Assembly (NCBI RefSeq): GCF_001886735.1
Contig: NZ_CP018080.1
Coordinates: forward strand, 124,001-188,000
Source: Sulfitobacter alexandrii
Lineage (GTDB): Bacteria; Pseudomonadota; Alphaproteobacteria; Rhodobacterales; Rhodobacteraceae
Length of the DNA stretch: 64,000 nucleotides
Direction: 5' to 3'
Every line of letters starts with the position of its first letter. The stretch's first letter is position 1. Shown in pieces: positions 24,653-53,535 of this stretch. A program made the translations under genes and the position numbers. The notes beneath the pieces were generated by a model that saw only the letters and a list, made by a program, of their open reading frames with translations, made no database searches and was not told the origin of the DNA.

Positions 24653-24678
24653 GTCTTCCTCCCGTTGAAAGCCGCAGG

Positions 24679-25725: not shown

Positions 25726-25726
25726 G

Positions 25727-31744: not shown

Positions 31745-33289
31745 ATGCTGGAAGGAACTTCGGGTAGCGGCAAGGCGAGCGTCTTCGACCTGTTCCGCGC
31801 GACCGTGCGGCGGTCGCCGGACAAGGTGGCGATCACCTCGCTTGCGGGCGATGTCACCTACCGCGCGCTTGAAGGTCGCGTGCTTGCGCTGGCCGGCGCG
31901 CTGGCCACGCGGGGATTGCAGGCGGGCGACCGGGTGGCGCTGCTGTCGGAGAACCGGCAGGAGTACGCCGAGCTCGAACTCGCCGCCGCCGCGCTCGGCC
32001 TGATCGTCGCCTGCCAGAACTGGCGGTTGGAGCGGGCCGAGCTGACCCATTGCATCCAGCTGGTCGAACCCGCACTCGTCATCGCCTCCGCCCGCCATGC
32101 CTCAGCCTATGCCGAGACCGGCCATGACGCGCCCCTGCTGGTGATCGAGGACGACTGGCCCGCCCTGACCGCGCACGACCCCCTGCCCGCGCTGCCGCAG
32201 GTCGACCCCGAGGCCGGGCTCATCATCCTCTATACCTCCGGCACCACCGGCCTGCCCAAGGGCGCGCTCATCAGCCACCGGGCCGAGATCGCGCGCATGT
32301 GCGCCTACCGCATGGATCTGAACGTCACGCCCGAGGACGACTTCATCGCCTGGGCGCCGATGTTCCATATGGGCTCGACCGACCAAGTGCTGGCGACGCT
32401 GATGATGGGTGCCTGTGTGCACATCCTCGACGGCTACGACGCGCGCGCCATCGTCGACATTATGGCGCGCCAGACGCTGGGCTGGCTGCTGCTGATGCCC
32501 GGCACGATCGAGCCGGTGGTGGAGATCCTGCGCGCCGAGCGCCCGCAGGTCGCCGGCGTGCGCGCCATCGGCGCGATGATCGACCTCGTGCCGCGCGATC
32601 TCGCCGCCGACCTCGCGCGGCTGTCGGGGTCGGGCTACCTCAACAGCTTCGGCTCGACCGAGACCGGTCTGCCGCCCGGATCGGCGCGCACCATGACGCC
32701 GGAGGAACTGTTGCAGGGCAACCTGTCCAAACGCCTGTCGATGCTGGTGGACGCGATCCTCGTGGACGCGGAGGGCAACGAGGTCCCCGACGGCACGCCC
32801 GGAGAGATGGCGGTGCGCGGCCCGACGATCTTTTCCGGCTATTGGAACGCGCCAGAGACCAACGCCAAGGATTTCCGCGGCGGACGGTTCCGCATGGGCG
32901 ACATGTTCGTCCGCCACGCCGACGGCACCTTCGATTTCGTGGACCGCGCCAAGTACATGATCAAGTCCGGCGGCGAGAACATCTATCCCGCCGAGATCGA
33001 GCGCGTGCTGCTGGCCGACCCGCGCATCCGCGACGCGGTCATCGTGCGCAAGGCGGACGCCCACTGGGGCGAGGTGCCGGTCGCCTTCGTCGCGCGCAAG
33101 GGCAGCGATCTGGACGAAGCGGGGATCGAGGCGCTCTGCCGCGTCGAACTCGCCGGGTACAAGCGCCCGAAGGAGGTGCATTTCGTCGACTACGACGACC
33201 TGCCACGCTTCACCACCGGCAAGATCATGCGGCATGAACTGGAGGCGCGGCTGCGCGACGGCGCCTTCAGTGCACCGCCGCGAACATGA
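31745..33289 (+). CDS. AMP-dependent acyl-CoA ligase (class I adenylate-forming)
   Basis: Predicted carboxylate-CoA ligase of 514 aa. P-loop ILYTSGTTGLPKGALIS near 160, FGSTETGLPPG near 300, FRMGDMFVRH near 385, and the C-terminal DRAKYMIKSGGENIYPAEIE with the catalytic Lys in TTGKIMRHEL near 495. The start follows GGGGAGGAAA. It ends in a 23-bp overlap with the convergent ABC ATPase gene. It probably feeds the hydratase in the same operon; the acid is unknown. Confidence 0.9.
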   Translation: MLEGTSGSGKASVFDLFRATVRRSPDKVAITSLAGDVTYRALEGRVLALAGALATRGLQAGDRVALLSENRQEYAELELAAAALGLIVACQNWRLERAELTHCIQLVEPALVIASARHASAYAETGHDAPLLVIEDDWPALTAHDPLPALPQVDPEAGLIILYTSGTTGLPKGALISHRAEIARMCAYRMDLNVTPEDDFIAWAPMFHMGSTDQVLATLMMGACVHILDGYDARAIVDIMARQTLGWLLLMPGTIEPVVEILRAERPQVAGVRAIGAMIDLVPRDLAADLARLSGSGYLNSFGSTETGLPPGSARTMTPEELLQGNLSKRLSMLVDAILVDAEGNEVPDGTPGEMAVRGPTIFSGYWNAPETNAKDFRGGRFRMGDMFVRHADGTFDFVDRAKYMIKSGGENIYPAEIERVLLADPRIRDAVIVRKADAHWGEVPVAFVARKGSDLDEAGIEALCRVELAGYKRPKEVHFVDYDDLPRFTTGKIMRHELEARLRDGAFSAPPRT

Positions 33290-34760
33290 TCTGCTCCTCG
33301 GTCGCCTCCAGCGGATCGAACTCCTCCACCACCCGACCCGCGCGGCAGACGAGGATGCGGTCCGAGATCGACATGATCTCGGGCAGGTAGGAGGAGATCA
33401 CCACCACCGCCAGCCCCTCGTCCGCCAGCCGGTTGATCAGCTGGTGGATCTCCGCGATGGCGCCCACGTCCACGCCGCGCGTCGGTTCGTCGAAGATCAC
33501 GATGCGCGGTCGCTGCGCCAGCGACTTGGCGATCACCACCTTCTGCTGGTTGCCGCCCGACAATTCGATCACCCGCGCATCGCTGTCGATGGCCTTGATG
33601 TTCAGCTGCTTCGTCCATTCCGCCGCCAGCGCCGACATTTCGCTGCGCGTCACCACCGCGGCCTTGTTCAGCCCCGCCGTCTGCACCCCCATGGAGATGT
33701 TCTCGGCGATCGACATGGTCTCGAAGAAGCCCTCGGCCTTGCGGTCCTCGGTGACGTAGACGATCCCGTCCTCCATCGCGCTGCGCGGCACGCGGTAGCG
33801 GACGGACCGGTCGTCGAGCCAGATTTCCCCGCCGTTGAGGAAGTTGCGCTTGACCACGCCCGCGATGATCTTGGCGACCTCGGTGCGGCCCGACCCGATC
33901 AGCCCGAACATGCCGGTGATCTGGCCCGAGTACACCGAGAAGGAAGTGTTGCGCACGATGGTGCCCATCGACACGTTCTGCACCGACAGCACCCGTTCCT
34001 GCCCCTGCCGGACCGACCGGCGCTTGACCCCGTGTGTCGAATTCTCGATCGACCGGCCGACCATCGCCTTGATGATCCGGTCGCGGTCAAAACTCTTGGC
34101 CGGCGCCGTCTCGATCAGCGCGCCGTCGCGCAGGACGGTGATGTTGTCGCCGATCTGCAGCGCCTCTTCCAGCGCGTGCGAGATGAAGATGATCGATACG
34201 CCGCGTTCCTTCAGCCGTGCGACCAGCGAGAAGAAGTGGTGCTTTTCCTCCGGCGTGAGCGCGGCGGTCGGTTCGTCGAAGATGATGATCCGCACGTTCT
34301 TACGCACCGCGCGGGCGATCTCCACCATCTGCTTGTGCGCGGCGCCAAGGCTGCTGACCGTCGCGGTCGGGTTCACGTTGAAGTTCAACGACTGAAGGAA
34401 GGTCTGCGCCGCGATGTTCAGCCCCCGGATGCGGTTGAACAGCTTCTCGTCACCCAGGTAGAGATTCTGCGCCACGGTCATCGATGGCACGAGGCTGGTT
34501 TCCTGGAAGACCATCGCCACCCCGTGTTCCAGCGCCTCGGCCGGCGTCTGGAAGTTGACCGGCTTGCCGTCGAGGAGTATCTCCCCCCGCGTCGCCTGCG
34601 TCACGCCGCACATCATCTTGGTCAGCGTCGACTTCCCCGCGCCGTTCTCTCCCAGAAGGGCGTGGACCTCGCCCTGTTGCAGGCGGAAATCCACGTCCGT
34701 GATGGCCGGAACGCCCCGGTATTCCTTGGTGACGTTGCGCATTTCCAGCAAGGCGCTCAT
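33267..34760 (-). CDS. CUT2 ABC transporter ATP-binding protein, two ATPase domains
   Basis: Energy subunit of a ribose-type importer, 497 aa. First-domain Walker A is GENGAGKST near 37 and Walker B FDEPTAAL; the second domain has the degenerate GLIGSGRTE and then LSGGNQQKV with DEPTRGVD. The start overlaps the stop of the propeller gene (ATGA). It is the last gene of the 13-gene operon, and its end overlaps the convergent ligase gene by 23 bp. CUT2 systems usually carry sugars, but the Lsr system of this class carries the furanone-type signal AI-2, so a non-sugar cargo is possible here. Confidence 0.93.
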   Translation of the reverse strand: MSALLEMRNVTKEYRGVPAITDVDFRLQQGEVHALLGENGAGKSTLTKMMCGVTQATRGEILLDGKPVNFQTPAEALEHGVAMVFQETSLVPSMTVAQNLYLGDEKLFNRIRGLNIAAQTFLQSLNFNVNPTATVSSLGAAHKQMVEIARAVRKNVRIIIFDEPTAALTPEEKHHFFSLVARLKERGVSIIFISHALEEALQIGDNITVLRDGALIETAPAKSFDRDRIIKAMVGRSIENSTHGVKRRSVRQGQERVLSVQNVSMGTIVRNTSFSVYSGQITGMFGLIGSGRTEVAKIIAGVVKRNFLNGGEIWLDDRSVRYRVPRSAMEDGIVYVTEDRKAEGFFETMSIAENISMGVQTAGLNKAAVVTRSEMSALAAEWTKQLNIKAIDSDARVIELSGGNQQKVVIAKSLAQRPRIVIFDEPTRGVDVGAIAEIHQLINRLADEGLAVVVISSYLPEIMSISDRILVCRAGRVVEEFDPLEATEEQIMFAAVH

Positions 34761-35827
34761 ACCCCGGCCCTCCCCTTCGTCATGTCCAGCGCGAGGATCA
34801 CGTCGCCGCCCTTTGACGCGGCGTAGACGCGCCCGCCCGCCTCGACCACGCTGGTGATCCCGTGCCGCCGCCCGTCCGCGCGGCTGTGCTGGCTGAAGAG
34901 CGGGTGCAGTTTCTCGTCCAGCCGGATCACCAGCCCGTAGGACTGCGTCGGCGCCCAGGGTTTCACCACGCCCAGATGCTTCTGCGCACCGCCCTGCAAG
35001 GGGCGCATGAAGCTGTCGGTCGCCTCCAGCGCGGGGGCGGCCCAGAAGGCCGGGTCGATCTCGGCCATCATCCGGGCGCGAAAGGCAGGTTCGCGCAGGA
35101 TGAACTCCGTCAGCTGGTTGCGCGGCGCGAAGACCGCCAGCCACCAGCCGCCGTCCCCGCTCGGCGCGATGCGCGCGGGGTAGCCAGGCAGGTCGGCCAG
35201 CGGATAGGTGACGCTGCCATCCGGGCAGCGCAGGGAAACGCGGTGCCGCCACGCCTCCGTCAGGATCAGCCCCTGCGGCGACAGCCCCAGCCCGAAGGGC
35301 CAGGCAAGCGCGTCCATGACCCGCTCGGCCTTGCCGCCCGCGAGGTCCACCCGCCAGACGCTGCCCGATGCGCCCCGGCTCATCAGGTCATGCTTCCAGT
35401 GGTCGGGCGCGCGATCCTGCGAGCCGTTCGCGATCCACAGCGTTCCGGCCCCGTCGAAGAGCAGCGCGGTCGGGCAAGGGTATGGCCCGCCCGGCACCCC
35501 GCCCGCATGCGGCCCGCCGACGATCCGCACCCCGCCGTCGTTCAGCCCCACGGCCAGCACTTCCTCCGGCCCCGCCGCCAGCGCGCTCACGTCGCTGTCG
35601 AAGCGGTGCACCTCCGTCCCGTCGAGCGCGTGCACCGCAGGCCCGGCGGCATAGAGAACCCGCTCCCCCGCCACCGCCAGCACATCCGGCGCGCGCACCT
35701 CGCGCACCGCCTCCGCCCGGTCGAGCAACTGGTTCGGCCGCAGCGCCCCGTCCAGCGAGGGCACGGTCACCGCCGCCTCCCCGCTGCCCCGGATATGGTC
35801 GAGCCGGCGTTTCAGAAAAGCGATCAT
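34757..35827 (-). CDS. Strictosidine-synthase/SMP-30-like beta-propeller protein
   Basis: Predicted six-bladed propeller of 356 aa without a signal peptide. Recognisable repeats include WPFGLGLSPQGLILTEAW, ADLPGYPARIAPSGDGGWW and HGITSVVEAGGRVYAASKGG, which parallel the C-terminal domain of the upstream fusion protein, so this is a tandem relative. Members of this superfamily are lactonases, arylesterases or, in plants, strictosidine synthase. A cytosolic lactone- or ester-opening role fits the CoA-ligase operon. It overlaps genes on both sides by ATGA. Metal ligands could not be fixed by eye. Confidence 0.78.
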   Translation of the reverse strand: MIAFLKRRLDHIRGSGEAAVTVPSLDGALRPNQLLDRAEAVREVRAPDVLAVAGERVLYAAGPAVHALDGTEVHRFDSDVSALAAGPEEVLAVGLNDGGVRIVGGPHAGGVPGGPYPCPTALLFDGAGTLWIANGSQDRAPDHWKHDLMSRGASGSVWRVDLAGGKAERVMDALAWPFGLGLSPQGLILTEAWRHRVSLRCPDGSVTYPLADLPGYPARIAPSGDGGWWLAVFAPRNQLTEFILREPAFRARMMAEIDPAFWAAPALEATDSFMRPLQGGAQKHLGVVKPWAPTQSYGLVIRLDEKLHPLFSQHSRADGRRHGITSVVEAGGRVYAASKGGDVILALDMTKGRAGV

Positions 35828-37947
35828 GACTTCTTGCCCCAATAGGAGTCGTAGGAGGTCCACTCCGGGTCCGCCCCCGGGATGCGGTAGCGCCCGACGC
35901 GGTTGTTGTAGATCCCGCCGAGGTAGAGGTACCCCTTGTGCTCGCGGATCGAGGTGATCATCGGATGCGCTTCGCCGCCGAGATCCCAGAGCACGTCCAG
36001 CACGTTGCCCTCGGCATCGAACTTGATGACGCAGCCGGTGTTCATGTTCGGGTACAGCCAGTCGTCCCGCGCCACCGCCTGCACCATCCGGCGGCGGAAG
36101 CCCGGCATCTCCTGCGCGAGGTCGAAGACCGGAGAGCGCATCCCGCAGAGCGCGCACCAGTAGGTCCCGTCCGAGGCGCGGTTGATGTTGTCGGGATAGC
36201 CCGGCAGGTTGTCGATCACGACCTCGGTCTGGCCCTTTTTCGGCCCGTCGAACCAGTAGCGGGTGATCCGGCAACCCCATGTCTCGGCGTAAAGCAGCGA
36301 CTGGCCTTCGAACTCCACGCAGATGCCGTTGGGCAACTGCTTGTTCGGCACGACGGTGCGCGATGTGTCGGTCCTGGGGTCGTAGCAGATGATCCGGCCG
36401 TTGCCCCGGGCCTCCAGCGCGTCGACCATCCAGTCGTACATCTCGTAGCGCACCGTCGCCTCGGAGAAGAACACGCGGCCGTCCGGAGCGATGTCGAGGT
36501 CGTCGGCCAGCCGCAACCGGCTGTCATCGACGATGGAGGTCCAGGTGCGGTTGGTCTCGTCCGACAGCTTGGTCACGGTCCGGTCCGGCGCAATCCTGAA
36601 CAGCCCCATGCCACCGACGCAGACATGCAGGTTATCCTCCGCGTCGAAGGCCATGCCCAGCGGGTGCCCGCCGATATGGGCGAAGACCTCAACCTGTTTG
36701 TAATCCGGCGCGAGGATGCGCATCACGTCGCCGTGGCGGCTGCCGCAGTACATGTTGTCCTCGCGGTCGAAGATCATGTCCTCCGGCCCGTCGAGCTCGC
36801 CCAGGCCGATGGCCTCGACCCCGCGCAGCCGGTCGTTCAGGGCATAGTCGCTGCCCGAGCCCTGCGCCGTCTCCGGCAGAGGCGGCAGCTTAAAGAAGGT
36901 GGGCGAGACATAGGCCCGCGCCAGCACCTTGTGTCGGTTCTTGACCCAGCGCACGTCGATGGCCACCGCCGCCAGCAGCACGCAGCCGAGGATCAGCGAG
37001 GAGGTGCCCGACAGGAACCCCATCTGGATCAGGCTGTTCTGCACCAGCAGGATGATGAGCGTCCCGAGGGCCGCCTTCACCACCGACCCGCGCCCGCCGC
37101 CGAGGCTGATGCCGCCCAGCACCACGGCGGTCAGGATCGTGACCTCGAGCCCCCGGCCCACGTCCGCGCTCGCGCTCGACAGGCGCGCAGCGTAGAAACA
37201 GGCCGCCAGCCCGCAGAGCGCGCCCGACAGGACGTAGGTCAGGCAGACCGTCCGCTTCACCTTGATGCCTGCGTTGAAGGCCGAGCGACGCGAGCCGCCC
37301 ACCGCCATGACGTGCCAGCCGAAGCGCAGCCGCGTCAGCGTGACATGCGCCGCGATGGCCACCGCGATGGCCGCCAGCAGGCTTGCCGGGATCCCAAAGA
37401 AGGATCCGAGCGCCATGAACTCCCAGACGGTCGACATGTTGAACCCGCGTCCGATGATCATGGCGTAGTCCAGCAGCAGCATGTCCACCACCGCGCGCAC
37501 GATGATCAGCATGACCAGCGTGGTCAAAAAGGCGCGCAACCGCAGGTAGCCGATGAGGATGCCGTTGATCAGCCCGACGAGCGCGCCGACGGCCACGACC
37601 AGCACCATGCCAAGGGCGATGTTCCATTCAAGGTAGTTGATCAGTGACAGGGCGACGAAGTTGCACAGCGCAAAGATCGACCCCACCGACAGGTCGATGC
37701 CGCCCGCCATCATCACCACGGTCAGCCCGATGGCGATGAACAGGTATTCCCCGTAGATGCGCCCGATGTCCGACAGGTTCGCCGCCGACAGGAAGGTCGG
37801 CATCTGCGTGCCGAAGACCACCAGCACGACGGCGAGAAAGAAGGCCGGTATCAGCGTGTCGATCCAGTTCTTCGACAGGATCTCGCCGATGGCCTTGTCG
37901 GGGACGTAACGATAACGCCACCGGATCATGCTCTCGGAAAGGGACAT
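35824..37947 (-). CDS. Fusion: CUT2 ABC permease plus strictosidine-synthase/SMP-30-like propeller
   Basis: A 707-aa two-part protein. Residues 1-340 are an RbsC-type permease (about ten helices, AGGIDLSVGS at 81-90, VVLGGISLGGGRGS near 276). After a linker, 375-707 form a beta-propeller: GELDGPEDMIFD near 384, LADDLDIAPDGRVFF near 480, and NLPGYPDNINRASDG near 580, as in strictosidine-synthase-like/APMAP proteins. The propeller should face the cytoplasm if the permease has its usual topology. The frame is continuous with no sign of error. The ATG at 37947 is chosen over a TTG because GGAG then has correct spacing. The operon also has a normal permease (39087), so a heterodimer channel is likely. 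Confidence 0.88.
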   Translation of the reverse strand: MSLSESMIRWRYRYVPDKAIGEILSKNWIDTLIPAFFLAVVLVVFGTQMPTFLSAANLSDIGRIYGEYLFIAIGLTVVMMAGGIDLSVGSIFALCNFVALSLINYLEWNIALGMVLVVAVGALVGLINGILIGYLRLRAFLTTLVMLIIVRAVVDMLLLDYAMIIGRGFNMSTVWEFMALGSFFGIPASLLAAIAVAIAAHVTLTRLRFGWHVMAVGGSRRSAFNAGIKVKRTVCLTYVLSGALCGLAACFYAARLSSASADVGRGLEVTILTAVVLGGISLGGGRGSVVKAALGTLIILLVQNSLIQMGFLSGTSSLILGCVLLAAVAIDVRWVKNRHKVLARAYVSPTFFKLPPLPETAQGSGSDYALNDRLRGVEAIGLGELDGPEDMIFDREDNMYCGSRHGDVMRILAPDYKQVEVFAHIGGHPLGMAFDAEDNLHVCVGGMGLFRIAPDRTVTKLSDETNRTWTSIVDDSRLRLADDLDIAPDGRVFFSEATVRYEMYDWMVDALEARGNGRIICYDPRTDTSRTVVPNKQLPNGICVEFEGQSLLYAETWGCRITRYWFDGPKKGQTEVVIDNLPGYPDNINRASDGTYWCALCGMRSPVFDLAQEMPGFRRRMVQAVARDDWLYPNMNTGCVIKFDAEGNVLDVLWDLGGEAHPMITSIREHKGYLYLGGIYNNRVGRYRIPGADPEWTSYDSYWGKKS

Positions 37948-38015
37948 CTTCTGCAACTCCAGGAAACGAGATAGGCACGGCCCGCCGCAGCGGACCGCGC
38001 GGTGTCACGGGCGGG

Positions 38016-39044
38016 TCAGCCGCCGTTGGCCTTCAACTCGTCCAGCGTCCAGCACGAGGAAGCGGTCATGTTCTCCTTCGTGATGTACTTGAGCGGCGTG
38101 TAGAGCGCGAAGGGCGCGGACCCCGGCTCGGGATCGGTCTGCAGCAGGATCTTCACCGCCGAGTTCAGGTCACGCGCCTGTCCGGGCACGTCGTAGCTGT
38201 AGTAGGCGTCGAAGTTGCCGTTCTCGATGTTGTCGCAGGCCGCCGACTGGTTGCCGCCGCCCGAGGTGACAAGGAACACCTGGTCCTGCACCCCGGCCTC
38301 GCGGATCGCCGCCGCGGTGCCGATGTCCTGCCCGTCCCAGAGCCCGAGGATCCCACAAAGATCCGGGTGCTGCTTGAGAATGGTCGAGGTGATGGCCTGC
38401 GCCTTGGACGCATCCCAGTCCGCCGCCTGCGTGGCGACGACCTCGATCTCGGGATGCTGATCGAAGACGTCCTGCGCCCCCTGCCCCGAGATCGTGGCGG
38501 TCGGCGTCGCCAGCATGCCCTGCACGAAGGCGATCTTGCCGTTCCCGCCCGAGCCTTCGCCGCAGGCATCGACCACGGCCTGCGCCTGCTTCTGGCCCAT
38601 CTCGTACCAGTCGGTCCCGACATAGACATCGCCATTGGTCACCGACTTCAGGTTGACCTGGATCACGTTGATGCCCGATGCCATCGCCTTCTGCACCGTC
38701 CGGTTATAGGCCTGCATGTCCAGCGGATGCAGGATCAGCACGTCCGGCTGCTCCGCGATCAGCCCGTTTGCCGCCTGCACGCCGGCCTCGGTGTTCCAGT
38801 TCGGGTCGCGGATCGTGACCTCGTATCCCAGCGCCTCGGCCTGGTTCTGCAGGCCCGCGTTCCAGCCCTCGGTCAGGTCGAAGCCCATCGACAGCGGCAC
38901 GAAGCCGACCTTCTTGCCGGTCAGCTTTTCGTAGTAGGTCTTGGACTGTCCGTCGTCGAAGGGCTCCGCCAGCGATGCGGTCGCGAGACCGGCGATGGCT
39001 GTTGCCACGGCGGCAGCGGCCGCCAGGATCTTTCTCGTCTTCAT
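38016..39044 (-). CDS. CUT2 ABC transporter substrate-binding protein
   Basis: Periplasmic binding protein of 342 aa. The ATG at 39044 follows AGGAGG at 7 nt; one two codons upstream is too close to it. The Sec signal ends near residue 26 (ATASLAEP). The fold is RbsB-like: GKKVGFVPLSMGFDLTEGW, VLILHPLDMQAYN, and ILGLWDGQDIGTAAAI. Two Cys in the C-terminal half (AACDN and SSCW) could form a disulfide. It sits between the two permease genes with gaps of 42 and 68 nt. The ligand is unknown. Confidence 0.9.
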   Translation of the reverse strand: MKTRKILAAAAAVATAIAGLATASLAEPFDDGQSKTYYEKLTGKKVGFVPLSMGFDLTEGWNAGLQNQAEALGYEVTIRDPNWNTEAGVQAANGLIAEQPDVLILHPLDMQAYNRTVQKAMASGINVIQVNLKSVTNGDVYVGTDWYEMGQKQAQAVVDACGEGSGGNGKIAFVQGMLATPTATISGQGAQDVFDQHPEIEVVATQAADWDASKAQAITSTILKQHPDLCGILGLWDGQDIGTAAAIREAGVQDQVFLVTSGGGNQSAACDNIENGNFDAYYSYDVPGQARDLNSAVKILLQTDPEPGSAPFALYTPLKYITKENMTASSCWTLDELKANGG

Positions 39045-39086
39045 GGTCATTCCTCCTCGTTGACCCGTTCTTGTTATGACCGCGCG

Positions 39087-41068: not shown

Positions 41069-42291
41069 TGCTCGGTCTCCTTTTCTCGCGTTGCTGCCCG
41101 CTTCAGCTCGGCCCGGGCCAGCGCCTCGCGGTGCACCTCGTCCGGCCCGTCGCCGATCCGCAGGAAGCGTGTCTCGGCGAAGGCGGCGGCGAGGAAGAAA
41201 TCCTCCGACAGGCCGCCGCCGCCGTGCACCTGGATCGCCCGATCGATGATCTGGCCGGTCACGGTGGGCACGAATATCTTGGCCATCGCGATCTCGTTGC
41301 GCGCCGCCTTGTTGCCGTGGCGGTCCATCGCCCAGGCCGCCTTCAGCGTCATCAGCCGCGCCGCCTCAAGCTCGGTCCGGCACTGGCCGATCACCTGCCG
41401 CACGCCGCCCATCTCGGACAGGCGGCTGCCGAATGCGGTGCGGCTGGCGGCCCGCGCGCACATCTCCTCGATGGCGCGCTCGGCCAGCCCGATGAAGCGC
41501 ATGCAGTGATGGATGCGTCCCGGCCCGAGCCTGCCCTGCGCGATCTCGAAGCCGCGCCCCTCGCCCAGCAGCATGTTGTCTGCCCCCACCCGCGCGCCGT
41601 CAAAGACGACCTCGGCATGGCCCAATGGCGGATGCTGGAAGCCGTAGACCGACAGCGGGCGTTCGACCGTCACGCCGGGCGTGTCCATCGGGACAAGGAT
41701 CATCGACTGCTGCTGGTGCTTCGGCGCGTCGGGGTCGTTCTTGCCCATGACGATGGCGACCTTGCAGTCCTCGGCCATGGCGCCGGTGATCCACCACTTG
41801 CGGCCCGTTACCACATAGCCGTCGCCGTCCCGCTCGATCCGGGTCTCGACGTTGGTGGCGTCCGACGAGGCGACCGCGGGCTCCGTCATGGCAAAGCAGG
41901 ACCGGATCTCCGCCGCCAGCAGCGGTTTCAGCCAGCGTTCCTTCTGCGCCTCCGTGCCGTAGGTGGCGAGAATCTCCATGTTGCCCACGTCGGGCGCGTT
42001 GCAGTTGAAGATCTCGGGTGCCGCCAGCGACCGCCCGAGGATCTCGCACAGGTGCGTGTACTGGTAGTTCGACAGCCCCTGCCCTTCCGGGCCGTGATGA
42101 TAGAACAGGTTCCACAGCCCCTGCGCCCGCGCCTTCTCCTGCAACGCACGCATCAGCGGCGTGTGGCGCCAGCGGTTCTCCACCCGGCCCTCGTCCAGCA
42201 GTTCGCCTTCGTTGGGATAGACATGCTCCGCCATGAAGGCGGTCAGCTTGTCCTTCAGATCGCGTGTCTTGTCGTCGAGTTCTGCAAACAT
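41065..42291 (-). CDS. Acyl-CoA dehydrogenase, ACAD10/ACAD11 (LvaC-like) type
   Basis: FAD-dependent dehydrogenase of 408 aa. FNCNAPDVGNMEILATYG near 93, IRSCFAMTEPAVASSDATN near 126 and the C-terminal QVHGGGGLSEDF with IGDGPDEVHREALAR are typical of the dehydrogenase half of ACAD10/11. In mammals those proteins join a kinase-like APH domain with the dehydrogenase and process 4-hydroxyacyl-CoA; in the bacterial Lva pathway LvaC does the same after LvaA phosphorylates the substrate. The APH-type gene lies three genes upstream. The start at 42291 lacks a strong ribosome-binding site but agrees with the family N terminus. Confidence 0.88.
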   Translation of the reverse strand: MFAELDDKTRDLKDKLTAFMAEHVYPNEGELLDEGRVENRWRHTPLMRALQEKARAQGLWNLFYHHGPEGQGLSNYQYTHLCEILGRSLAAPEIFNCNAPDVGNMEILATYGTEAQKERWLKPLLAAEIRSCFAMTEPAVASSDATNVETRIERDGDGYVVTGRKWWITGAMAEDCKVAIVMGKNDPDAPKHQQQSMILVPMDTPGVTVERPLSVYGFQHPPLGHAEVVFDGARVGADNMLLGEGRGFEIAQGRLGPGRIHHCMRFIGLAERAIEEMCARAASRTAFGSRLSEMGGVRQVIGQCRTELEAARLMTLKAAWAMDRHGNKAARNEIAMAKIFVPTVTGQIIDRAIQVHGGGGLSEDFFLAAAFAETRFLRIGDGPDEVHREALARAELKRAATREKETEQ

Positions 42292-42299
42292 GGCCTGCC

Positions 42300-43910
42300 T
42301 TACGTGTTCAGTTTCTCGCGCTTGATGGTGATGCCGGCGGCCTCGCGGTCCCAGGTGTCGGGGGTCAGCCCGGCCTCGCGCAGTTCGACCTTGCGGATCT
42401 TCGCGGTCGGCGTGCGCGGCAGTTCGGGAACGAAGCGCAGGTAGCGGGGCACCATGAAATGCGCCATGCGGGGGCGCAGAAACTCGATCAGGTCGGCGGG
42501 GTCCAGCACCTCTCCGGCACGCAGGGCGACGATGCCCATGACCTCGTCCTCGGCCACCTCGCTCCTGACCGCGACGACGGCGGCCTCCTGCACCGCCGGA
42601 TGCGCCGCGATCTCGCTCTCCACCTCGAAGGAAGAGATGTTCTCGCCCCGCCGGCGGATCGCGTCCTTTATCCGGTCGCAGAAATAGAAGTTGCCGTCGG
42701 CATCCTTGCGGAACCCGTCGCCGGTGTGGAACCAGCCGTTGCGCCACGCCTCGGCCGTCGCCTCCGGGTTGGCGGCATAGCCGTGGTTCATCGCCCAGGG
42801 ACAGTCGGTGCGCACGATCAGCTCGCCCATCTCGCCCACCGGCACCTCGCAGTCGTTGGCATCGACGATGCGCACCTCGACCCCCTTGCGCGGCCGCCCG
42901 GCGCTGCCCATCGCGGTCGGGTTCGGGTCCGACACGATCGGCATGGAGATTTCGGTCATGTTGAAATGCGTGTGCACGTCGGTGGCGAAACGTTCGTGGA
43001 ACCGCACCGCGCTTTCGTTCATCGGCACGTAGGTGCAGCTGCGCAGACTGTGGTCGCGGTCGTCGTCGCGCACCGGTTGCTTGATGAGGAAGCTGCCCAT
43101 CACCCCCAGCAGGATCGCGGTGGTGATACCCGTCTCGCGCACGACATCCCAGAAAGCGTCGGTCTTGAAGCTTTCGACCATCGCGATCGACCCGCCGTGG
43201 ATCAGCATCGCCGTCACCGGCATCACCCCGCCCGAATGGAACAGCGGCAGGTTGATCATGTAGCGGTCGTCGGCATCGAGAAACGGCGCCGACAGCGCCA
43301 TGAAGTAGAGATGGCAGTAGGAGGACATGACCCCCTTCGACGGCCCCGTGGTGCCCGAGGTAAAGATGATCGACTGCAACTCGCGCGGGTGCATCGGTTC
43401 GTCCAGCGGGATCGGATCTTTCGCCTCGCTCTCCAGTACCTCCGCGCCGTGGACGGTCAGCCCCGGCAAGGCGCAGGGTGTGCCCATCAGCACCACGACC
43501 TCCGCCACCTGCCCCGGCGTCACGTCGCCAAGGTGCGGCGCAAGCTCCGCGTGGACGATGGCCAGCCGCGCCTCGGACAAGGTGGCGGCATGGGCCAGAA
43601 GGGTGCCGCGGTAGGCGGTGTTCATCGGCACGAAGACGGCACCGAGGTAGTTCAGCCCGAACCAGACCCGCAGCGCCTCGGCGCAGTTGGGCATCCAGAC
43701 CAGCACCCGGTCGCCGCGTTTCACCCCCAGTGCGCGGAGGGCATGAGCGGTGCGGATGGTCAGCGCCAGCGTCTCGGCATAGGTCCATGTGCCACCATCC
43801 GGCCAGACGGCAAAGACCTTGTCGGGTTGCGTAGCGGCGTGCCGTTCCAGCAGGTGCCGCTGGATGCAGTCTTCCGCCGCCGGCATCCGGGGATCGACGT
43901 GAACGCTCAT
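42300..43910 (-). CDS. AMP-dependent acyl-CoA ligase (LvaE-like position)
   Basis: Predicted carboxylate-CoA ligase of 536 aa. P-loop IIFTSGTTGPSKGVMSS near 177, FNMTEISMP near 320, GWFHTGDGFRKDADG near 395, DRIKDAIRRRGENISSFEVE, and a late catalytic Lys in TPTAKIRKVEL near 510. It lies 8 nt before the dehydrogenase gene and overlaps the DUF6285-like gene. Its place between the kinase pair and the ACAD suggests it activates the hydroxy acid that the kinase then phosphorylates. Confidence 0.9.
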   Translation of the reverse strand: MSVHVDPRMPAAEDCIQRHLLERHAATQPDKVFAVWPDGGTWTYAETLALTIRTAHALRALGVKRGDRVLVWMPNCAEALRVWFGLNYLGAVFVPMNTAYRGTLLAHAATLSEARLAIVHAELAPHLGDVTPGQVAEVVVLMGTPCALPGLTVHGAEVLESEAKDPIPLDEPMHPRELQSIIFTSGTTGPSKGVMSSYCHLYFMALSAPFLDADDRYMINLPLFHSGGVMPVTAMLIHGGSIAMVESFKTDAFWDVVRETGITTAILLGVMGSFLIKQPVRDDDRDHSLRSCTYVPMNESAVRFHERFATDVHTHFNMTEISMPIVSDPNPTAMGSAGRPRKGVEVRIVDANDCEVPVGEMGELIVRTDCPWAMNHGYAANPEATAEAWRNGWFHTGDGFRKDADGNFYFCDRIKDAIRRRGENISSFEVESEIAAHPAVQEAAVVAVRSEVAEDEVMGIVALRAGEVLDPADLIEFLRPRMAHFMVPRYLRFVPELPRTPTAKIRKVELREAGLTPDTWDREAAGITIKREKLNT

Positions 43911-44380
43911 GTCCCGCTCTCCTTTCCGCTGGCCCCGCCCTTCGCGATCTCGGCGAAGGAGGGGCGGTGCGTCAGTTTCATGTCCTCGCGCAGCTCGTCG
44001 TGCATGTGGCGGCGCAGCCGGGCGACGGCGGCCTCGGCCCCCGCGCCCTCGGCCATCCAGCCCAGCAGCCGCTCCGATATCTGCCGGTCCAGTTCCGCAG
44101 CCTCGGCCAGCAAAGCCGTGCTTTGTGGCACCTCGACCGTGCCCGTGACTGCCCCGGAGCCGCCCGCCAGCGCCTCCGCCTCGGCCAGTGCCGCCCGCTT
44201 GGCCGCGATCTGGCCCGCGATCTGCACGCCGTCCCAGTCCAGCCGCGCGCCGTAGTTGTTCAGCAGGTCGATCACCCCCAGCGCCTGACCGCGGGCGTAT
44301 CCGTCACCGACATGCGGGATCACGTCGTCGCGCAGCGTCTCCACGATCCCCTGCATCATCCGCGCCACCGAAGGTTTCAT
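43907..44380 (-). CDS. DUF6285-like small protein (LvaB-like partner of the kinase)
   Basis: A 157-aa helical, soluble protein. It begins KPSVARMMQGIVETLRDDVI, contains NNYGARLDWDG, and ends with many charged residues. It overlaps the phosphotransferase gene upstream and the ligase gene downstream. DUF6285 proteins are regularly encoded next to APH-fold kinases; in Pseudomonas putida the small LvaB protein is needed for LvaA activity. I recognise the family by context and general look, not by a catalytic motif. A role as obligatory kinase partner is inferred. Confidence 0.7.
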   Translation of the reverse strand: MKPSVARMMQGIVETLRDDVIPHVGDGYARGQALGVIDLLNNYGARLDWDGVQIAGQIAAKRAALAEAEALAGGSGAVTGTVEVPQSTALLAEAAELDRQISERLLGWMAEGAGAEAAVARLRRHMHDELREDMKLTHRPSFAEIAKGGASGKESGT

Positions 44381-45429
44381 GCCGCCGCCTCCAATGCCCG
44401 TTCCACCTGCAAAAGAAGGCGCGGTATCTGCGCCCCCATCCCGGCCATCCGCATGTCGTTGAACCCCCGCCGGTTGAAGCAGTCGAAGGCGCCGAGGTGC
44501 ATCACAGCCAGCTTGAACGTCCCGAACGCCTCGAAATAGGCCAGCCGCTTCGGCGCAACCTCCAGCCCCGTGCGCGCGACGTAACGGTCGACCAGCTCCT
44601 CCCGCGTGAGCAGGTGGCACATGTACTGCGACTTCCCCCGCCATGCCCGCAGGCAGGTCCAGCCCAAGTCCTCCAGCGGGTCGCCCAGATGCACCGTCTC
44701 CCAGTCGAGGAACGCCTGAATGTCGCCGTCCACCTCAAGGAAGTTGCCGATGCGGAAATCGCCGTGGATCACGCTGATCCGCTCCGCTTCGGGCGCATGT
44801 TCGCGGAACCATTCCGCCGCCCATTCCAGCATCGGGATGCGTTGGTCCGACCACTCGTGCATCCGCGCGACCCAGTGGTCGATCTGGCGCACCGTCGCGT
44901 TCCGAGCCGTCACGCCGGGGTCGAGGTCGGCCACCGGGGTGCTGCGCCAGTCAAAATTGTGCAGATCACCAAGGATGTCGAAGAACTGGTGCCCCAGCCG
45001 CTTGCGCATCACCTCGTCGAAGGCCGGGCCGCCGTCCGCCGTCCACGGGATCGGCACCTCGCCCGCCACCCGGTCGCAGATGAAGAAGGGCGCACCGAAG
45101 ACCGCGCCGCTGTCGTCGTACCAGTAGACTCCCGGCACCGGCAGCCCGGCCTCCTTCAACGCGCCCAGCACCACGAACTCCGGCTTGGCCCGGTAGGGGC
45201 CGAAGATGCCGTTCGGCGGGCCGACGCGCAGGATCAGCTCTCGCGTCTCGCCTCCCCAACGGGCGGTGAACCCGTAAGTCACCCACGAGAAGCCGACGGT
45301 GAAGCGGTTGAGCCGGCCCACCTCCACCGGTCCACCAGTGCGGCGTTCGAGAAAGTCGGTCAGCTCCCCCTGCACACGCGCGCTGTCGAAAGGGTCGAAG
45401 GGCCGAATATCGTTGAGCGTATCAGCCAT
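44377..45429 (-). CDS. APH-fold phosphotransferase (LvaA/ACAD10-11 kinase-like)
   Basis: Predicted cytosolic kinase of 350 aa. The catalytic loop HGDFRIGNF is at 222-230 and the metal-binding LDWE at 241-244. The N-lobe has GFSWVTYGF and an LILRVGPP strand, and LGDPLEDLGW follows. This is the aminoglycoside-phosphotransferase fold as used by ACAD10/11 and LvaA to phosphorylate the 4-hydroxyl of 4-hydroxyacyl-CoA. No resistance role is suggested: all neighbours are CoA-ester genes. It overlaps the TRAP small-permease gene by 8 nt and the DUF6285-like gene by 4 nt. Confidence 0.88.
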   Translation of the reverse strand: MADTLNDIRPFDPFDSARVQGELTDFLERRTGGPVEVGRLNRFTVGFSWVTYGFTARWGGETRELILRVGPPNGIFGPYRAKPEFVVLGALKEAGLPVPGVYWYDDSGAVFGAPFFICDRVAGEVPIPWTADGGPAFDEVMRKRLGHQFFDILGDLHNFDWRSTPVADLDPGVTARNATVRQIDHWVARMHEWSDQRIPMLEWAAEWFREHAPEAERISVIHGDFRIGNFLEVDGDIQAFLDWETVHLGDPLEDLGWTCLRAWRGKSQYMCHLLTREELVDRYVARTGLEVAPKRLAYFEAFGTFKLAVMHLGAFDCFNRRGFNDMRMAGMGAQIPRLLLQVERALEAAA

Positions 45430-45931
45430 CGGCCTGCCCCGTCAGCCGCCGCAGGTCCACCCAGATCACCCGCAGCATCTCGATCACCATCAAGCCGAAG
45501 GCGAAGGGCACGAAGATCACCACCGGCCAAAGCGGCCAGAATCCGGTGCCCACCTGCATCTGCCGCCCCGTCTGAATCGCATCCACCGCGAACCAGAACA
45601 CGAACCACACCAGCACGGCGTAGATCGCCAGTTCCACCAGCAGCACGAAGACCGACACCGCCGCGGCACCGCGCGCCGGCAGGGAATCGGCCAGCAGTTC
45701 CAGCCGGGGGAACAACGATTCGCGGTGCGCCGCGGGCAGCGCCCAGAACACCAGCAGCGGAAAGATCACCCGCTCGATGATGTTGTAGGCGCCCGGGATC
45801 AGGTCGGTGTGCAACACGTAGCGCCCGACCACGCTGGCGACCGAGATCAGCATCATCAGCGTCAGGGCCGTGCCCGCGCCGATGGCGGCGAGGCGATGCT
45901 CGAAAAGACCGAGGGATGAACGGAAACTCAT
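45422..45931 (-). CDS. TRAP transporter small permease (DctQ family)
   Basis: Four-helix membrane subunit of 169 aa, with VVGRYVLHTDLIPGAYNIIERV near residue 33 as the family segment and a WF-rich third helix. It lies 10 nt after the large permease gene and overlaps the phosphotransferase gene. It links the TRAP transporter physically to the kinase/ligase genes. Confidence 0.88.
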   Translation of the reverse strand: MSFRSSLGLFEHRLAAIGAGTALTLMMLISVASVVGRYVLHTDLIPGAYNIIERVIFPLLVFWALPAAHRESLFPRLELLADSLPARGAAAVSVFVLLVELAIYAVLVWFVFWFAVDAIQTGRQMQVGTGFWPLWPVVIFVPFAFGLMVIEMLRVIWVDLRRLTGQADG

Positions 45932-45941
45932 GACGACACCC

Positions 45942-47255
45942 TCACATCAGCCCGGGCAGCCAGGTCACGATGCCCGGCAGCAGGATCATCACCAGCCCGC
46001 AGACCAGCGCCGCCAGCAGCGCGAAGGGAAAGGCACCCCGGAACACCGGGCCCACGGGCACCTTGCCCGCCGCGGCGGCGGCATAGACGGCCAGCCCCAC
46101 CGGCGGCGTCAGCAGCCCGACCGATATCATCAGCATCGCCATCACCCCGAACCACAGCGGGTCGATCTGCGCGGCGTCGATGATCGGCATCAGGATGGGC
46201 ACCATCAGCACGATGACTGCCGCGCTTTCGAGAAACATGCCCGCGACGAAGATGATGGCCAGCAGCAGCGCGATCAGCAGGCTGGGCTGCGCCAGCAGAG
46301 GCTCCGTGACTTCCAGCAGCATCCGCGGCACACGCGAAAAGGACAGGAAGCGGGCGAAGATCTGCGCGCCGATCACCAGCATCATCAGCATGGCGGTGAC
46401 CTTGACGCTTTCGGCCAGCGCCTCGCCGAAGCCCGCCAGTGTGACGCGGCGCATCGCGAACATGCCGACGACCGACAGGAAGGCCCCCAGCGCACCCGCC
46501 TCGCCCACCGTGACGATCCCGCCGTAGATCGTGCCGAATACCGTGACCATCAGGAAGACGACGAAGCCCGTCGCGGTCAGCGTCCGCCCTGTCACCCGGT
46601 CGTCCACAGCCTCGCCCCCCGCCTTCATGCCGTCCACCGCGCCGGGCTGGACACGCGCGAAAAGCCGCAGGCACAGCATGTAGACCAGGATGCAGACCAG
46701 CGCCGGCCCCAGCGCCCCGATGAACATGTGCCCGATCGGCACCAGCGTGAGCGAGCCGTAGATGATGAAGACGATGCTGGGCGGAATGATCGCGGACAGC
46801 GACCCCGACACGGCGGCCAGCGAGACGGAGAAGGCGCGCGTATAGCCGACCCGCTCCAGCTCCGGCCCCGCGAGAGAGGCAAGCGCCGCCGACGAGGCCG
46901 AGGCCGACCCAGAAACGGCGCCCAGCATCCCGCCCGTGATCAGCGTGGCGACCCCCAGCGGATAGCGCCGGTAGCCCACGATCCGGTGTCCAACGCGGAA
47001 CAAGTCGAGGATGACACCGCCCCGCACCAGCATCTGCGCCATCAGAAGGTACAGCGGGATGATCGACAGCGAGTAGGTCGAGGTGGTGTAGAAGACGTCG
47101 CCGCCGATGATCCCCGACAGCACCCGGAACCCGTCGGTCCAGAGAACGATGCCGACGATACCGGCGCCCAGGAGGCAACTTGCCACCGCCTGCCCCAGCA
47201 CGAGGAAGGCAAGGAACCAGCCCAGCACGAACCATATGATGACGACTTGGGACAT
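45942..47255 (-). CDS. TRAP transporter large permease (DctM family)
   Basis: Sodium-coupled channel subunit of 437 aa with about twelve helices. Family segments: LLMAQMLVRGGVI, GSASASSAALASLAGPEL, AIIPPSIVFIIYGSLT and SVGLLTPPVGLAVY. It follows the binding-protein gene by 59 nt. With the ABC transporter this gives one operon two different uptake systems, perhaps for two forms of the substrate (for example a closed lactone and an open hydroxy acid). Confidence 0.92.
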   Translation of the reverse strand: MSQVVIIWFVLGWFLAFLVLGQAVASCLLGAGIVGIVLWTDGFRVLSGIIGGDVFYTTSTYSLSIIPLYLLMAQMLVRGGVILDLFRVGHRIVGYRRYPLGVATLITGGMLGAVSGSASASSAALASLAGPELERVGYTRAFSVSLAAVSGSLSAIIPPSIVFIIYGSLTLVPIGHMFIGALGPALVCILVYMLCLRLFARVQPGAVDGMKAGGEAVDDRVTGRTLTATGFVVFLMVTVFGTIYGGIVTVGEAGALGAFLSVVGMFAMRRVTLAGFGEALAESVKVTAMLMMLVIGAQIFARFLSFSRVPRMLLEVTEPLLAQPSLLIALLLAIIFVAGMFLESAAVIVLMVPILMPIIDAAQIDPLWFGVMAMLMISVGLLTPPVGLAVYAAAAAGKVPVGPVFRGAFPFALLAALVCGLVMILLPGIVTWLPGLM

Positions 47256-47314
47256 CTCTGCTCAGGTGTTCGGGGTGCAGGAGTGGCGGGCGCGGGATGC
47301 GCCCGCCGGTGCGA

Positions 47315-48409
47315 TCACTCGGCCAGGTACTCGGCCACGCCCTCGGGCAGGCTGCCGCCCTCGGCCTGGATCAGTTCGGCATAGAGCCTTGCCGTGGCGC
47401 GCGCGGGATGGCCCGCGGCCTCGGTCTTCTCGATCCAGTCGACCCATGTCTGCCGCCCGGCTTCGGCGATATGGTCCTGCATCTCCTGCGACAGGTCGTT
47501 GATCGACACGAAGCTGCCGCCGTCGTCGGCTTCGGAAGTCTCTTGCACCGAAACCCCGTTCTCGACCCACTTGTCCGCGTTGGTCAGCGCGATCTCGCGC
47601 GCTGTCTCGTCAAAGAGCTTCCGGTTCTCCTCGCTCATCTCGTTCCAGGCCTGGTCGGAAATGGCGAGGTAGCTTTCCCAGTGCCCGATCGACAGGTTCA
47701 CGATGGAATGGCGCAGCAGTTCCTGGATCGAATAGGACGGCCAGTCCGAGATCGAGATGATGATCCCGTCGATGGTCTTTCGAGACAGCGCCTCGTAGGC
47801 CTGCGGGCCGGGCAGGGTCACGGGCGTGGCACCAAGGTTCTCCAGCACGATGGTATGCAGCGCCGATCCCGCGCGCAGCGGCGTGCCGGTAAAGTCGGCA
47901 GGCTCCGCCAGCACCTTCTCGGTGGTCGAGATGGAGTAGGGTCCGGTGGCCCCCAGCGCCCAGACGCGGATGTTCTTGTCGGTGATCTCGTACTCGTAGA
48001 AGGTCTTGCCGTCCGCCAGTTCCACATCGGAGTCGAGCAGCGCCTGGAAAGCGCGCGTCACCATCGGGGAGTCGGTGCCGTAGGTCGGCAGTTGGGTCAC
48101 GTCCGACAGCGGGAAACGGCCCTCGTGGTAGGGTGCCAGCAGCGGCGAGGCAATGTCGATCACACCTGTCTGCAGGCTGTCCAGCGACCGGCCCACGCCG
48201 GCCAGCTCGCCACCGTAGAACTTGGTAAAGGTCACCTCACCACCGGTCTTCTCCTCCATCGCGGCGGCAAAGGGTTCCATGTGCCAGGCGGTCCACATAT
48301 GCGGCTGGCCGAGCCCGGTGGACATGGTGAAGTTCTGTGCCAGCGCCGGGGCCGCAAGGGCGCCGAACGCCGCGAGTCCCAGGCCGAATGTCCTGTTGAT
48401 GAATGTCAT
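47315..48409 (-). CDS. TRAP transporter solute-binding protein (DctP family)
   Basis: Periplasmic binding subunit of 364 aa. The start at 48409 follows GGGAGGAG, and a Sec signal is cut near residue 24 (AAPALAQ). Residues HMWTAWHMEPFAAAMEEKTGG and FTKFYGGELAG are typical early segments, and GTPLRAGSA near 160 contains the substrate-carboxylate Arg region. It is the first gene of the 13-gene minus-strand operon, with site 2 of the shared palindrome 74 nt upstream. Confidence 0.92.
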   Translation of the reverse strand: MTFINRTFGLGLAAFGALAAPALAQNFTMSTGLGQPHMWTAWHMEPFAAAMEEKTGGEVTFTKFYGGELAGVGRSLDSLQTGVIDIASPLLAPYHEGRFPLSDVTQLPTYGTDSPMVTRAFQALLDSDVELADGKTFYEYEITDKNIRVWALGATGPYSISTTEKVLAEPADFTGTPLRAGSALHTIVLENLGATPVTLPGPQAYEALSRKTIDGIIISISDWPSYSIQELLRHSIVNLSIGHWESYLAISDQAWNEMSEENRKLFDETAREIALTNADKWVENGVSVQETSEADDGGSFVSINDLSQEMQDHIAEAGRQTWVDWIEKTEAAGHPARATARLYAELIQAEGGSLPEGVAEYLAE

Positions 48410-53534: not shown

Positions 53535-53535
53535 G

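Follow-up and report, generated by a model that had tools for sequence, protein, structure and literature searches.

The stretch of DNA analyzed in this study, 64,000 nucleotides of contig NZ_CP018080.1 of Sulfitobacter alexandrii (hereafter the window, numbered from its first letter), contains a minus-strand operon of thirteen genes that is the core of a conserved, probably catabolic island spanning about 23.5-60.2 kb of the window. The modestly favored reading is that this island serves the uptake and breakdown of a branched, isoprenoid-type hydroxy acid via ATP-dependent dehydration of the hydroxyacyl-CoA, with a finish of the acyclic terpene utilization (Atu) type. An earlier prediction, made from the letters alone, had described the operon by itself as a gamma-lactone or 4-hydroxy-acid operon built on the chemistry of the Pseudomonas putida levulinate (Lva) pathway, in which a hydroxyl is phosphorylated and then eliminated. 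This type of chemistry is borne out by the type of acyl-CoA dehydrogenase (ACAD) and by the clade of the kinase, but the terpenoid context (AtuA and a carboxylase) and a second eliminating enzyme were missed. The route then proposed, which was said to use every enzyme, left out a DUF7064/DUF7065 protein (the DUF7064 protein below) that looks like this second enzyme; judged by sequence, the operon appears to hold two candidate phosphate-eliminating enzymes, namely the ACAD10/11-type dehydrogenase and the DUF7064 protein.

The thirteen packed genes described originally were confirmed as open frames at 33267-48409, in the order given, with starts refined (the DctP start is 48409), intergenic distances of -8 to +68 bp and overlaps at eight of the twelve junctions (4 bp at seven, 8 bp at one). 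Family assignments within the operon rest on Pfam and NCBIfam profile scans of the window proteins. A profile scan of genome contigs with the family of the 157-residue operon protein recovered 11 named loci, all from Rhodobacterales or Rhizobiales, and the operon order recurs in Sulfitobacter, Salinihabitans, Mesorhizobium, Tianweitania, Prosthecomicrobium and others; the operon is therefore not a chance grouping. Conservation also extends beyond the operon. The second ACAD and the short-chain dehydrogenase/reductase (SDR) lie upstream in seven of the 11 loci, a MaoC homolog sits inside the kinase operon in several rhizobial loci, AtuA and enoyl-CoA hydratase 2 stand beside the operon in six of nine evaluable loci, and the carboxylase is kept in all five AtuA loci that are readable further, in one of them only in part. 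On the other side, the neighboring acyl-CoA ligase, hydratase 3 and a LIV-type ATP-binding cassette (ABC) importer recur at 48-87% identity in Tianweitania, Bradyrhizobium jicamae and one Mesorhizobium metagenome-assembled genome (MAG) (L141, L064 and L071/L144, respectively). At one further locus (L059), a carboxyltransferase at 86-87% identity stands beside the kinase, the LvaB-like partner and the ACAD, without the ABC-propeller cassette and DUF7064.

The assignment of the operon ACAD to the phosphate-eliminating ACAD10/11-LvaC type, as proposed originally, is well supported at the sequence level by its scores against ACAD11 and by the pocket residues in register. Compared with all PDB chains, the protein scored 414-426 bits against three ACAD11 chains and 4hr3 (a putative ACAD), with a top score of 425.6 bits (mouse ACAD11) vs. 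138.7 bits for the next kind of ACAD, a clear gap to ordinary ACADs. The phosphate pocket and catalytic base of ACAD11 are given as Arg626, His634, Arg637 (HCMR motif) and Asp753 in an excerpt of PMC12440821, and all four are in register in the alignment of the window ACAD to mouse ACAD11. The HCMR motif (GRLGPGRIHHCMR) and the catalytic Asp are present in 9/9 operon ACADs, including that of the window, and also in the ACAD of L059.

The kinase family carries the motifs HGD[FY]R[IV]GN and DWE in all 14 members. In a tree of 55 sequences, a set lacking LvaA itself and three of the six own-genome paralogs (L004, L006 and L007), one clade (n=47, ultrafast bootstrap support 100) united the window kinase and 13 relatives with 31 DUF6285-linked kinases and the two kinases that precede members of an intermediate family described below. 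A separate clade, also with a support of 100, comprised the ACAD11 kinase domain, 3dxp, 9o56 and two kinases of the same genome (L001 and L002), and the kinase of L054 was placed outside the 47-sequence clade. The label of LvaA-like kinase thus stands as regards the clade of DUF6285-linked kinases, but not as regards the ACAD11 kinase domain. The kinase gene precedes the gene for the 157-residue protein in both locus sets considered (4/4 and 11/11). This is the position that DUF6285 occupies in its own loci: in all 31 loci examined (of 37 matches), the kinase match and the DUF6285 domain are on one strand, the former ending 93-280 bp ahead of the latter. Five of these loci (L026, L029, L030, L034 and L041) have both within a single open frame, and the two may be fused there.

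LvaB is, we presume, a DUF6285 protein needed by LvaA, and the 157-residue protein is read as a putative LvaB-like kinase partner. The DUF6285-like identity originally suggested for it survives as a possible remote profile relation together with the place behind the kinase, but not as a Pfam DUF6285 match: the protein has no match in Pfam (E up to 10) or NCBIfam, and PF19802 (DUF6285) has no match in this genome. Its narrow family comprises 14 proteins, itself included, among 5.8 billion. The direct profile score of this family against DUF6285 was 25.7, a small margin over 100 column shuffles (12.2 +/- 2.9, maximum 24.5), and hhalign gave P values of 0.003 (local) and 0.0009 (global), but the probability was low, about 10%. 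A three-member intermediate family matches the LvaB-like family at P 1.8e-8 and DUF6285 at P 3e-5 (probability about 50%), although it was found with the LvaB-like profile and hence is not an independent link. The AlphaFold2 (AF2) model, built from the 14 sequences, is all helical (predicted local distance difference test (pLDDT) 77, predicted template modeling score 0.54) and had no structural match in the PDB at E 0.001 or better, so that it gave no clue to the identity of the protein. Across 289 genomes, the 157-residue profile gave nine non-self matches. Those in L049, L051 and L054 are small proteins directly behind APH-fold kinases, which suggests from sequence that such kinases have partners of more kinds than DUF6285 alone; the remaining six matches do not follow a kinase and look like chance. 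A literature search on LvaA, LvaB and DUF6285 returned no DUF6285 paper among the matches listed.

The DUF7064 protein resembles 25-phosphosteroid lyase (25-PSL) in predicted fold and in motif, and looks like a candidate phosphate-eliminating enzyme. The five best Foldseek matches of its AF2 model (pLDDT 91.5) were all 25-PSL (E 1.4e-12 to 7.8e-12). Its sequence profile also placed 25-PSL first (E 0.0028, with RDxSWGxR in register) and AttH third. The similarity to 25-PSL is remote, with 19% identity over 276 aligned residues. The motif residues R190, D191, S193, W194, G195 and R197 are invariant in 46/46 sequences; in the 25-PSL entries the motif reads RDRSWGVR (9fzn) and RNRSWGVR (9g4c), the Asp being Asn in the product-bound entry. 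The Asp and both Arg are common to DUF7064 and 25-PSL, whereas AttH retains the Asp and the Trp but not the Arg. Conversely, a 41-residue piece of 25-PSL had DUF7065 as its sole Pfam match (E 0.0048, under the cut-off), and the NCBIfam model Rv3169_fam scored 40.5 bits against the DUF7064 protein, under its cut-off of 150. The family is large, with 5763 homologs at E 0.001 or better among 8000 candidates scored. According to excerpts of PMC8449060 and PMC11061730, 25-PSL acts in the sterol side chain, and its gene is called unknown in the former and putative in the latter. No DUF7064 or DUF7065 paper was among the matches listed in a literature search on DUF7064, DUF7065, Rv3169 and 25-PSL.

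Gene neighborhoods connect the DUF7064 family with kinases. In 14 regions (covering 15 non-self matches), DUF7064 directly adjoins a kinase-family gene in six, on the same strand in five; in L123, L124 and L127 the DUF7064 gene rests on Pfam and was not re-found by the profile made here (in L127 it is under the Pfam cut-off, and the kinase lies on the other strand), and the L120 kinase is spread over two overlapping frames. A row of DUF7064, kinase and DUF6285 was observed in two other genomes (L115 in G426 and L118 in G315), linking the candidate lyase with pairs of the LvaA/LvaB type.

The two candidate eliminating enzymes can be separated from each other. In ten evaluable loci, picked by the presence of the 157-residue partner, the kinase, the partner and DUF7064 occur together in all ten and an orthologous ACAD in eight. 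No orthologous ACAD stands beside the kinase in B. jicamae (L064) and in a Hyphomicrobiales MAG (L068). Searched with the window ACAD, these two genomes gave top matches of only 59% and 61% identity, respectively, vs. 75-86% for the seven others covered; the MAG is possibly incomplete. The reverse case is G235, a genome of the window's family, in which the kinase, the partner and the ACAD (77%) are present and DUF7064 has no match at E 1e-10; the product of the kinase therefore suits the ACAD as well. Because the ACAD is lost in two loci and DUF7064 in G235, either enzyme can accompany the kinase. Tentatively, and with less confidence than the overall reading of the island, the APH-fold kinase and DUF7064/7065 protein are proposed to form a general bacterial module for ATP-dependent dehydration, interchangeable or parallel with the ACAD10/11-type enzyme, such that one kinase would serve two unrelated eliminators that feed a terpene-type gamma-carboxylase.

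The flanking AtuA, the carboxylase of methylcrotonyl-CoA carboxylase (MCC) or geranyl-CoA carboxylase (GCC) type, MaoC, SDR and second ACAD suggest that 3-methyl-branched, terpenoid-type acids are the substrates. AtuA matched PF07287 at 463.9 bits against a cut-off of 22.8. An excerpt of PMC4847356 lists citronellyl-CoA dehydrogenase, geranyl-CoA carboxylase, isohexenyl-glutaconyl-CoA hydratase and the acetate-cleaving lyase AtuA as the Atu enzymes. Among PDB chains, the nine top matches of the carboxyltransferase were five MCC (best 599 bits), one GCC (474 bits), AccD1, propionyl-CoA carboxylase beta and a carboxyl transferase. The hallmark of GCC, three residues missing before the position of MCC Phe191, did not appear as a gap in the alignment to MCC, and the best match was not GCC. 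Phe191 of MCC blocks large acyl groups according to an excerpt of PMC4673880; this position (counted by eye) is Ala in the carboxyltransferases of the window, L059 and L064, and this speaks for a larger acyl group than methylcrotonyl. Two other carboxyltransferases of the genome have Phe (L130) and Gly (L129) at this position. The original prediction had also taken the missing reductase LvaD as a sign of a substrate already at the hydroxy level; this argument is weak because the SDR at 50468-51337, in a neighboring operon, is co-conserved in seven of the 11 loci.

From the observed gene content, order, conservation, motifs, clades and fold match, we infer a series of reaction steps together with the 4-position of the hydroxyl, the branching and the lactone. 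The acid or its lactone would be imported by the tripartite ATP-independent periplasmic (TRAP), Rbs-type ABC-propeller and LIV-type ABC systems; ring opening of a lactone, which is a plausible substrate, would fall to the permease-fused propeller. The ligase would form the CoA ester, and the kinase, aided by the small LvaB-like partner, would phosphorylate the hydroxyl, which is probably and most likely at C4. The ACAD10/11-type flavoenzyme and/or the DUF7064 protein would then expel the phosphate to give an enoyl-CoA. If this product is a 3-methyl-2-enoyl-CoA, the carboxylase, hydratases and AtuA would take off the methyl branch in the manner of acyclic terpene utilization, and beta-oxidation would complete the breakdown. 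In particular, if a 4-hydroxy-3-methylacyl-CoA receives its phosphate at C4, the ACAD10/11-type enzyme would by elimination directly yield the gamma-carboxylase substrate 3-methyl-2-enoyl-CoA, and the DUF7064 enzyme could act likewise on related or tertiary alcohols; such a reading could use nearly all of the genes.

Both of the uptake systems pointed out originally, ABC and TRAP, are present in the operon, but neither is constant across related loci. The TRAP genes were rejected as an essential part, being absent from four of the 11 loci (L064, L068, L069 and L072). So was the ABC-propeller cassette: L064 and L071 do not have it in the interval from DUF7064 to the conserved genes that follow, and in L063 and L068 (only 1.7 kb readable in L068) it is not adjacent, which makes four of the ten loci that extend past DUF7064. 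The cassette is a separable module, as the same five genes also stand alone. Ten annotated plasmid regions contain it without an annotated APH-type kinase, and ACADs are annotated in only one of them (L095). In 17 further family cassette regions, of which L101 is probably the same plasmid as L095, G029 alone has an ACAD10/11-type gene, 5 kb off, and a distant kinase piece. The cassette mostly occurs without the other genes of the operon. Rhizobiales, Rhodobacterales and a few further groups carry it on plasmids as well as on chromosomes (fusion at 35824-37947 in the window; L018-L020 and L089-L112 elsewhere), and carboxymuconolactone-decarboxylase-family genes lie near it in 6/17 of the family regions. 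At one locus the cassette overlaps the end of a gene for a degradative 3-hydroxy-3-methylglutaryl-CoA (HMG-CoA) reductase, and at a second locus such a gene is situated about 3 kb upstream of the cassette, which fits a general importer of hydroxy acids or lactones; mevalonate, for its part, has a lactone form. Literature searches found nothing on a permease-lactonase link and, by title, nothing related on a mevalonate-ABC link.

Of the two propellers, which the original prediction had placed together in a lactonase-containing superfamily, the fused one has an intact signature but the other has lost two of three metal residues. In the fused propeller, Glu389, Asn540 and Asp586 are invariant in 112/112 sequences (counts based on 111 of the 120 listed of 4340 homologs); these residues are taken to be a metal site by analogy with SMP-30 and PON1. 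A rice relative (8kg3) carries all three in the printed alignment, and plant strictosidine synthases lack the Asn and the Asp, the Glu not being covered by the alignment. The second propeller falls under the Pfam thresholds (SGL E 0.021) and aligns with the fused one; among 16 sequences the Asn and the Asp occur in none and an Asp stands in the Glu position in all, and this propeller is probably non-catalytic by its sequence.

Several observations count against parts of the favored reading of a branched hydroxy acid with an Atu-type finish. Adjacent Atu genes were not found around L065, L069 and L070. Three downstream stretches likewise showed no LIV-type importer: L140, where the sole match was to an ATPase at 30%, L142, where TetR2 and hydratase 3 alone were matched, and L143. 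Since the cassette mostly occurs without kinase genes and is absent from some similar islands, it is weak evidence for a lactone. A simpler account, in which the operon would process gamma-lactones or straight-chain 4-hydroxy acids by propeller lactonases, Lva-type dehydroxylation and beta-oxidation with the Atu genes as unrelated neighbors, gains from the three loci without adjacent Atu genes, as well as from the ACAD10/11-type enzyme, the kinase with its partner, the invariant residues of the fused propeller and the cassettes near HMG-CoA reductase genes with the lactone form of mevalonate. This account is nevertheless improbable: it leaves the DUF7064 enzyme unexplained, AtuA and hydratase 2 flank the operon in six loci, the carboxylase accompanies the kinase, LvaB-like protein and ACAD in L059 even without the cassette or DUF7064, and the cassette is not adjacent in four loci.

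The DUF7064 protein itself admits two other explanations. The kinase and this lyase may act on a tertiary alcohol instead of a 4-hydroxyacyl-CoA, much like the 25-hydroxysteroid kinase and its lyase on sterol side chains, with the ACAD10/11-type enzyme serving a second hydroxyl or an alternative substrate. The fold, profile and motif matches to 25-PSL, the isoprenoid gene context and the greater constancy of DUF7064 (ten loci vs. eight for the ACAD), including its retention with the kinase and partner in B. jicamae and the Hyphomicrobiales MAG, all agree with this explanation, which still appears unlikely, if less so than the simple lactone operon: G235 keeps the kinase, partner and ACAD without a DUF7064 match, the MAG may lack sequence, and steroid-ring genes were not noticed in the family scans of the window. 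That the DUF7064 protein is instead a hydratase, isomerase or carrier of the AttH/CrtC lipocalin-like superfamily, unrelated to phosphate, is doubtful to the same degree as the simple lactone operon, as 25-PSL precedes AttH in the profile, the Arg residues of RDxSWGxR are shared with 25-PSL and not with AttH, and DUF7064 is linked to kinase genes.

The features of the island are collected in the table. The nearest NCBIfam model of the operon ligase was PRK06155 (505 bits, under its cut-off of 722), leaving a generic AMP-ligase, and the XylG/AraG/RbsA-type models among the matches listed for the RbsA-type ATPase were all under their cut-offs. The AMP-ligase inside the LIV-type ABC operon was observed in the same order in Tianweitania, B. 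jicamae and the Mesorhizobium MAG. The same genome carries a second AtuA on contig C6 (171297-182099), which has carboxyltransferases at 65% and 45% identity in its vicinity; that contig has no APH-family match.

Table. Genes of the thirteen-gene operon and of the flanking island, in window coordinates
Feature	Position	Strand	Basis
TRAP solute-binding protein DctP	47315..48409	-	Pfam PF03480
TRAP large permease DctM	45942..47255	-	PF06808, 234 bits; TIGR00786 slightly under cut-off
TRAP small permease DctQ	45422..45931	-	PF04290
APH-fold kinase, DUF6285-linked (LvaA-like) clade	44377..45429	-	PF01636, motifs, trees
157-residue helical kinase partner, putative LvaB-like	43907..44380	-	Possible remote DUF6285 kinship, by profile comparison
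Acyl-CoA ligase (AMP-binding)	42300..43910	-	PF00501/PF13193
ACAD10/11-LvaC-type acyl-CoA dehydrogenase, phosphate-eliminating type	41065..42303	-	ACAD11 similarity, GRLGPGRIHHCMR, catalytic Asp
DUF7064/DUF7065 protein, candidate phosphate lyase, 25-PSL relative	40061..41068	-	Pfam, AF2, Foldseek, motif
RbsC-type ABC permease 1 (ABC-propeller cassette)	39087..40064	-	PF02653; cassette conserved
RbsB-type ABC binding protein (cassette)	38016..39050	-	PF13407
ABC permease fused to strictosidine-synthase/SMP-30-type propeller	35824..37947	-	PF02653, PF20067, PF03088, PF08450
Second propeller, probable non-catalytic partner	34757..35827	-	Two of three metal-site residues lost
RbsA-type ABC ATPase (cassette)	33267..34760	-	PF00005
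TetR regulator	48611..49288	+	PF00440; beside operon in 8/11 loci
Enoyl-CoA hydratase	49285..50049	+	PF00378
MaoC-type hydratase	50046..50471	-	PF01575
SDR oxidoreductase	50468..51337	-	PF13561; kept in 7/11 loci
Second acyl-CoA dehydrogenase (putative AtuD-like role)	51330..52526	-	PF00441; 77-90% in 7 related loci
Enoyl-CoA hydratase 2 (putative AtuE-like role)	52752..53534	+	PF00378; 69-87% in 6 loci
AtuA (acyclic terpene utilization protein)	53488..55344	+	PF07287; kept in 6 loci
Biotin carboxylase (start not fixed; open frame from 55074)	55341..56822	+	PF00289/PF02786/PF02785
Biotin carrier protein	56824..57333	+	PF00364
Carboxyltransferase nearest MCC, GCC-related (open-frame start; true start may lie inside)	57269..58927	+	PF01039, PDB alignment
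DSBA-fold protein, conserved beside carboxylase	58908..59519	+	PF01323
TetR regulator 2	59569..60237	+	PF00440
Acyl-CoA ligase, conserved island neighbor	31745..33289	+	PF00501; 61-64% in three related loci
Enoyl-CoA hydratase 3	30247..31062	+	PF00378
LIV-type ABC importer with embedded AMP-ligase (26599-28446)	23486..29998	-	Order kept at 67-87% in L141, L064, L071/L144

Phosphorylation followed by elimination is a little-known way of removing a hydroxyl; the cases considered here are the Lva pathway, ACAD10/11 and the anaerobic sterol side chain. If the reading of the island is correct, these cases would be joined with the Atu pathway, the large DUF7064/7065 family would gain a testable reaction, LvaB-like kinase partners would extend beyond DUF6285, and a function would be suggested for the permease-propeller fusion of Rhizobiales and Rhodobacterales plasmids. 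The dehydration module, if real, would define a new pathway for branched hydroxy acids (or terpenoid lactones). The link between kinase and DUF7064, and the meeting of Lva, ACAD11, 25-PSL and Atu types of chemistry in one island, would be surprising and are directly testable.

Compared with the P. putida Lva system (LvaA-E), the window appears to share a kinase followed by a small partner, an LvaC/ACAD10-11-type dehydrogenase, a CoA ligase and the phosphate-ester route; it differs in its partner without a Pfam DUF6285 match, in its transport, and in the addition of DUF7064, the carboxylase and AtuA. Mammalian ACAD10/ACAD11 share the ACAD domain with its phosphate-pocket residues (426 bits to mouse ACAD11), whereas in the window the kinase is encoded separately and belongs to a different clade; two ACAD11-type kinases (L001 and L002) are present elsewhere in the genome. 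The 25-hydroxysteroid kinase and 25-PSL of Sterolibacterium denitrificans are alike in combining a kinase with a 25-PSL-fold RDxSWGxR protein, but the similarity is remote, no steroid genes were noticed, and an ACAD10/11-type enzyme is also present in the window. The stand-alone RbsABC-type cassettes with a permease-propeller fusion (Rhizobium, Salipiger, Paraburkholderia, Pantoea and others) have the same five-gene order, while that of the window lies inside the kinase island. Finally, the Pseudomonas Atu pathway likewise gathers AtuA, a carboxylase, a hydratase, an ACAD, an SDR, a ligase and a TetR regulator in one island, to which the window adds the kinase/elimination module and three importers, with a separate biotin carboxylase and carrier and a carboxyltransferase nearer MCC.

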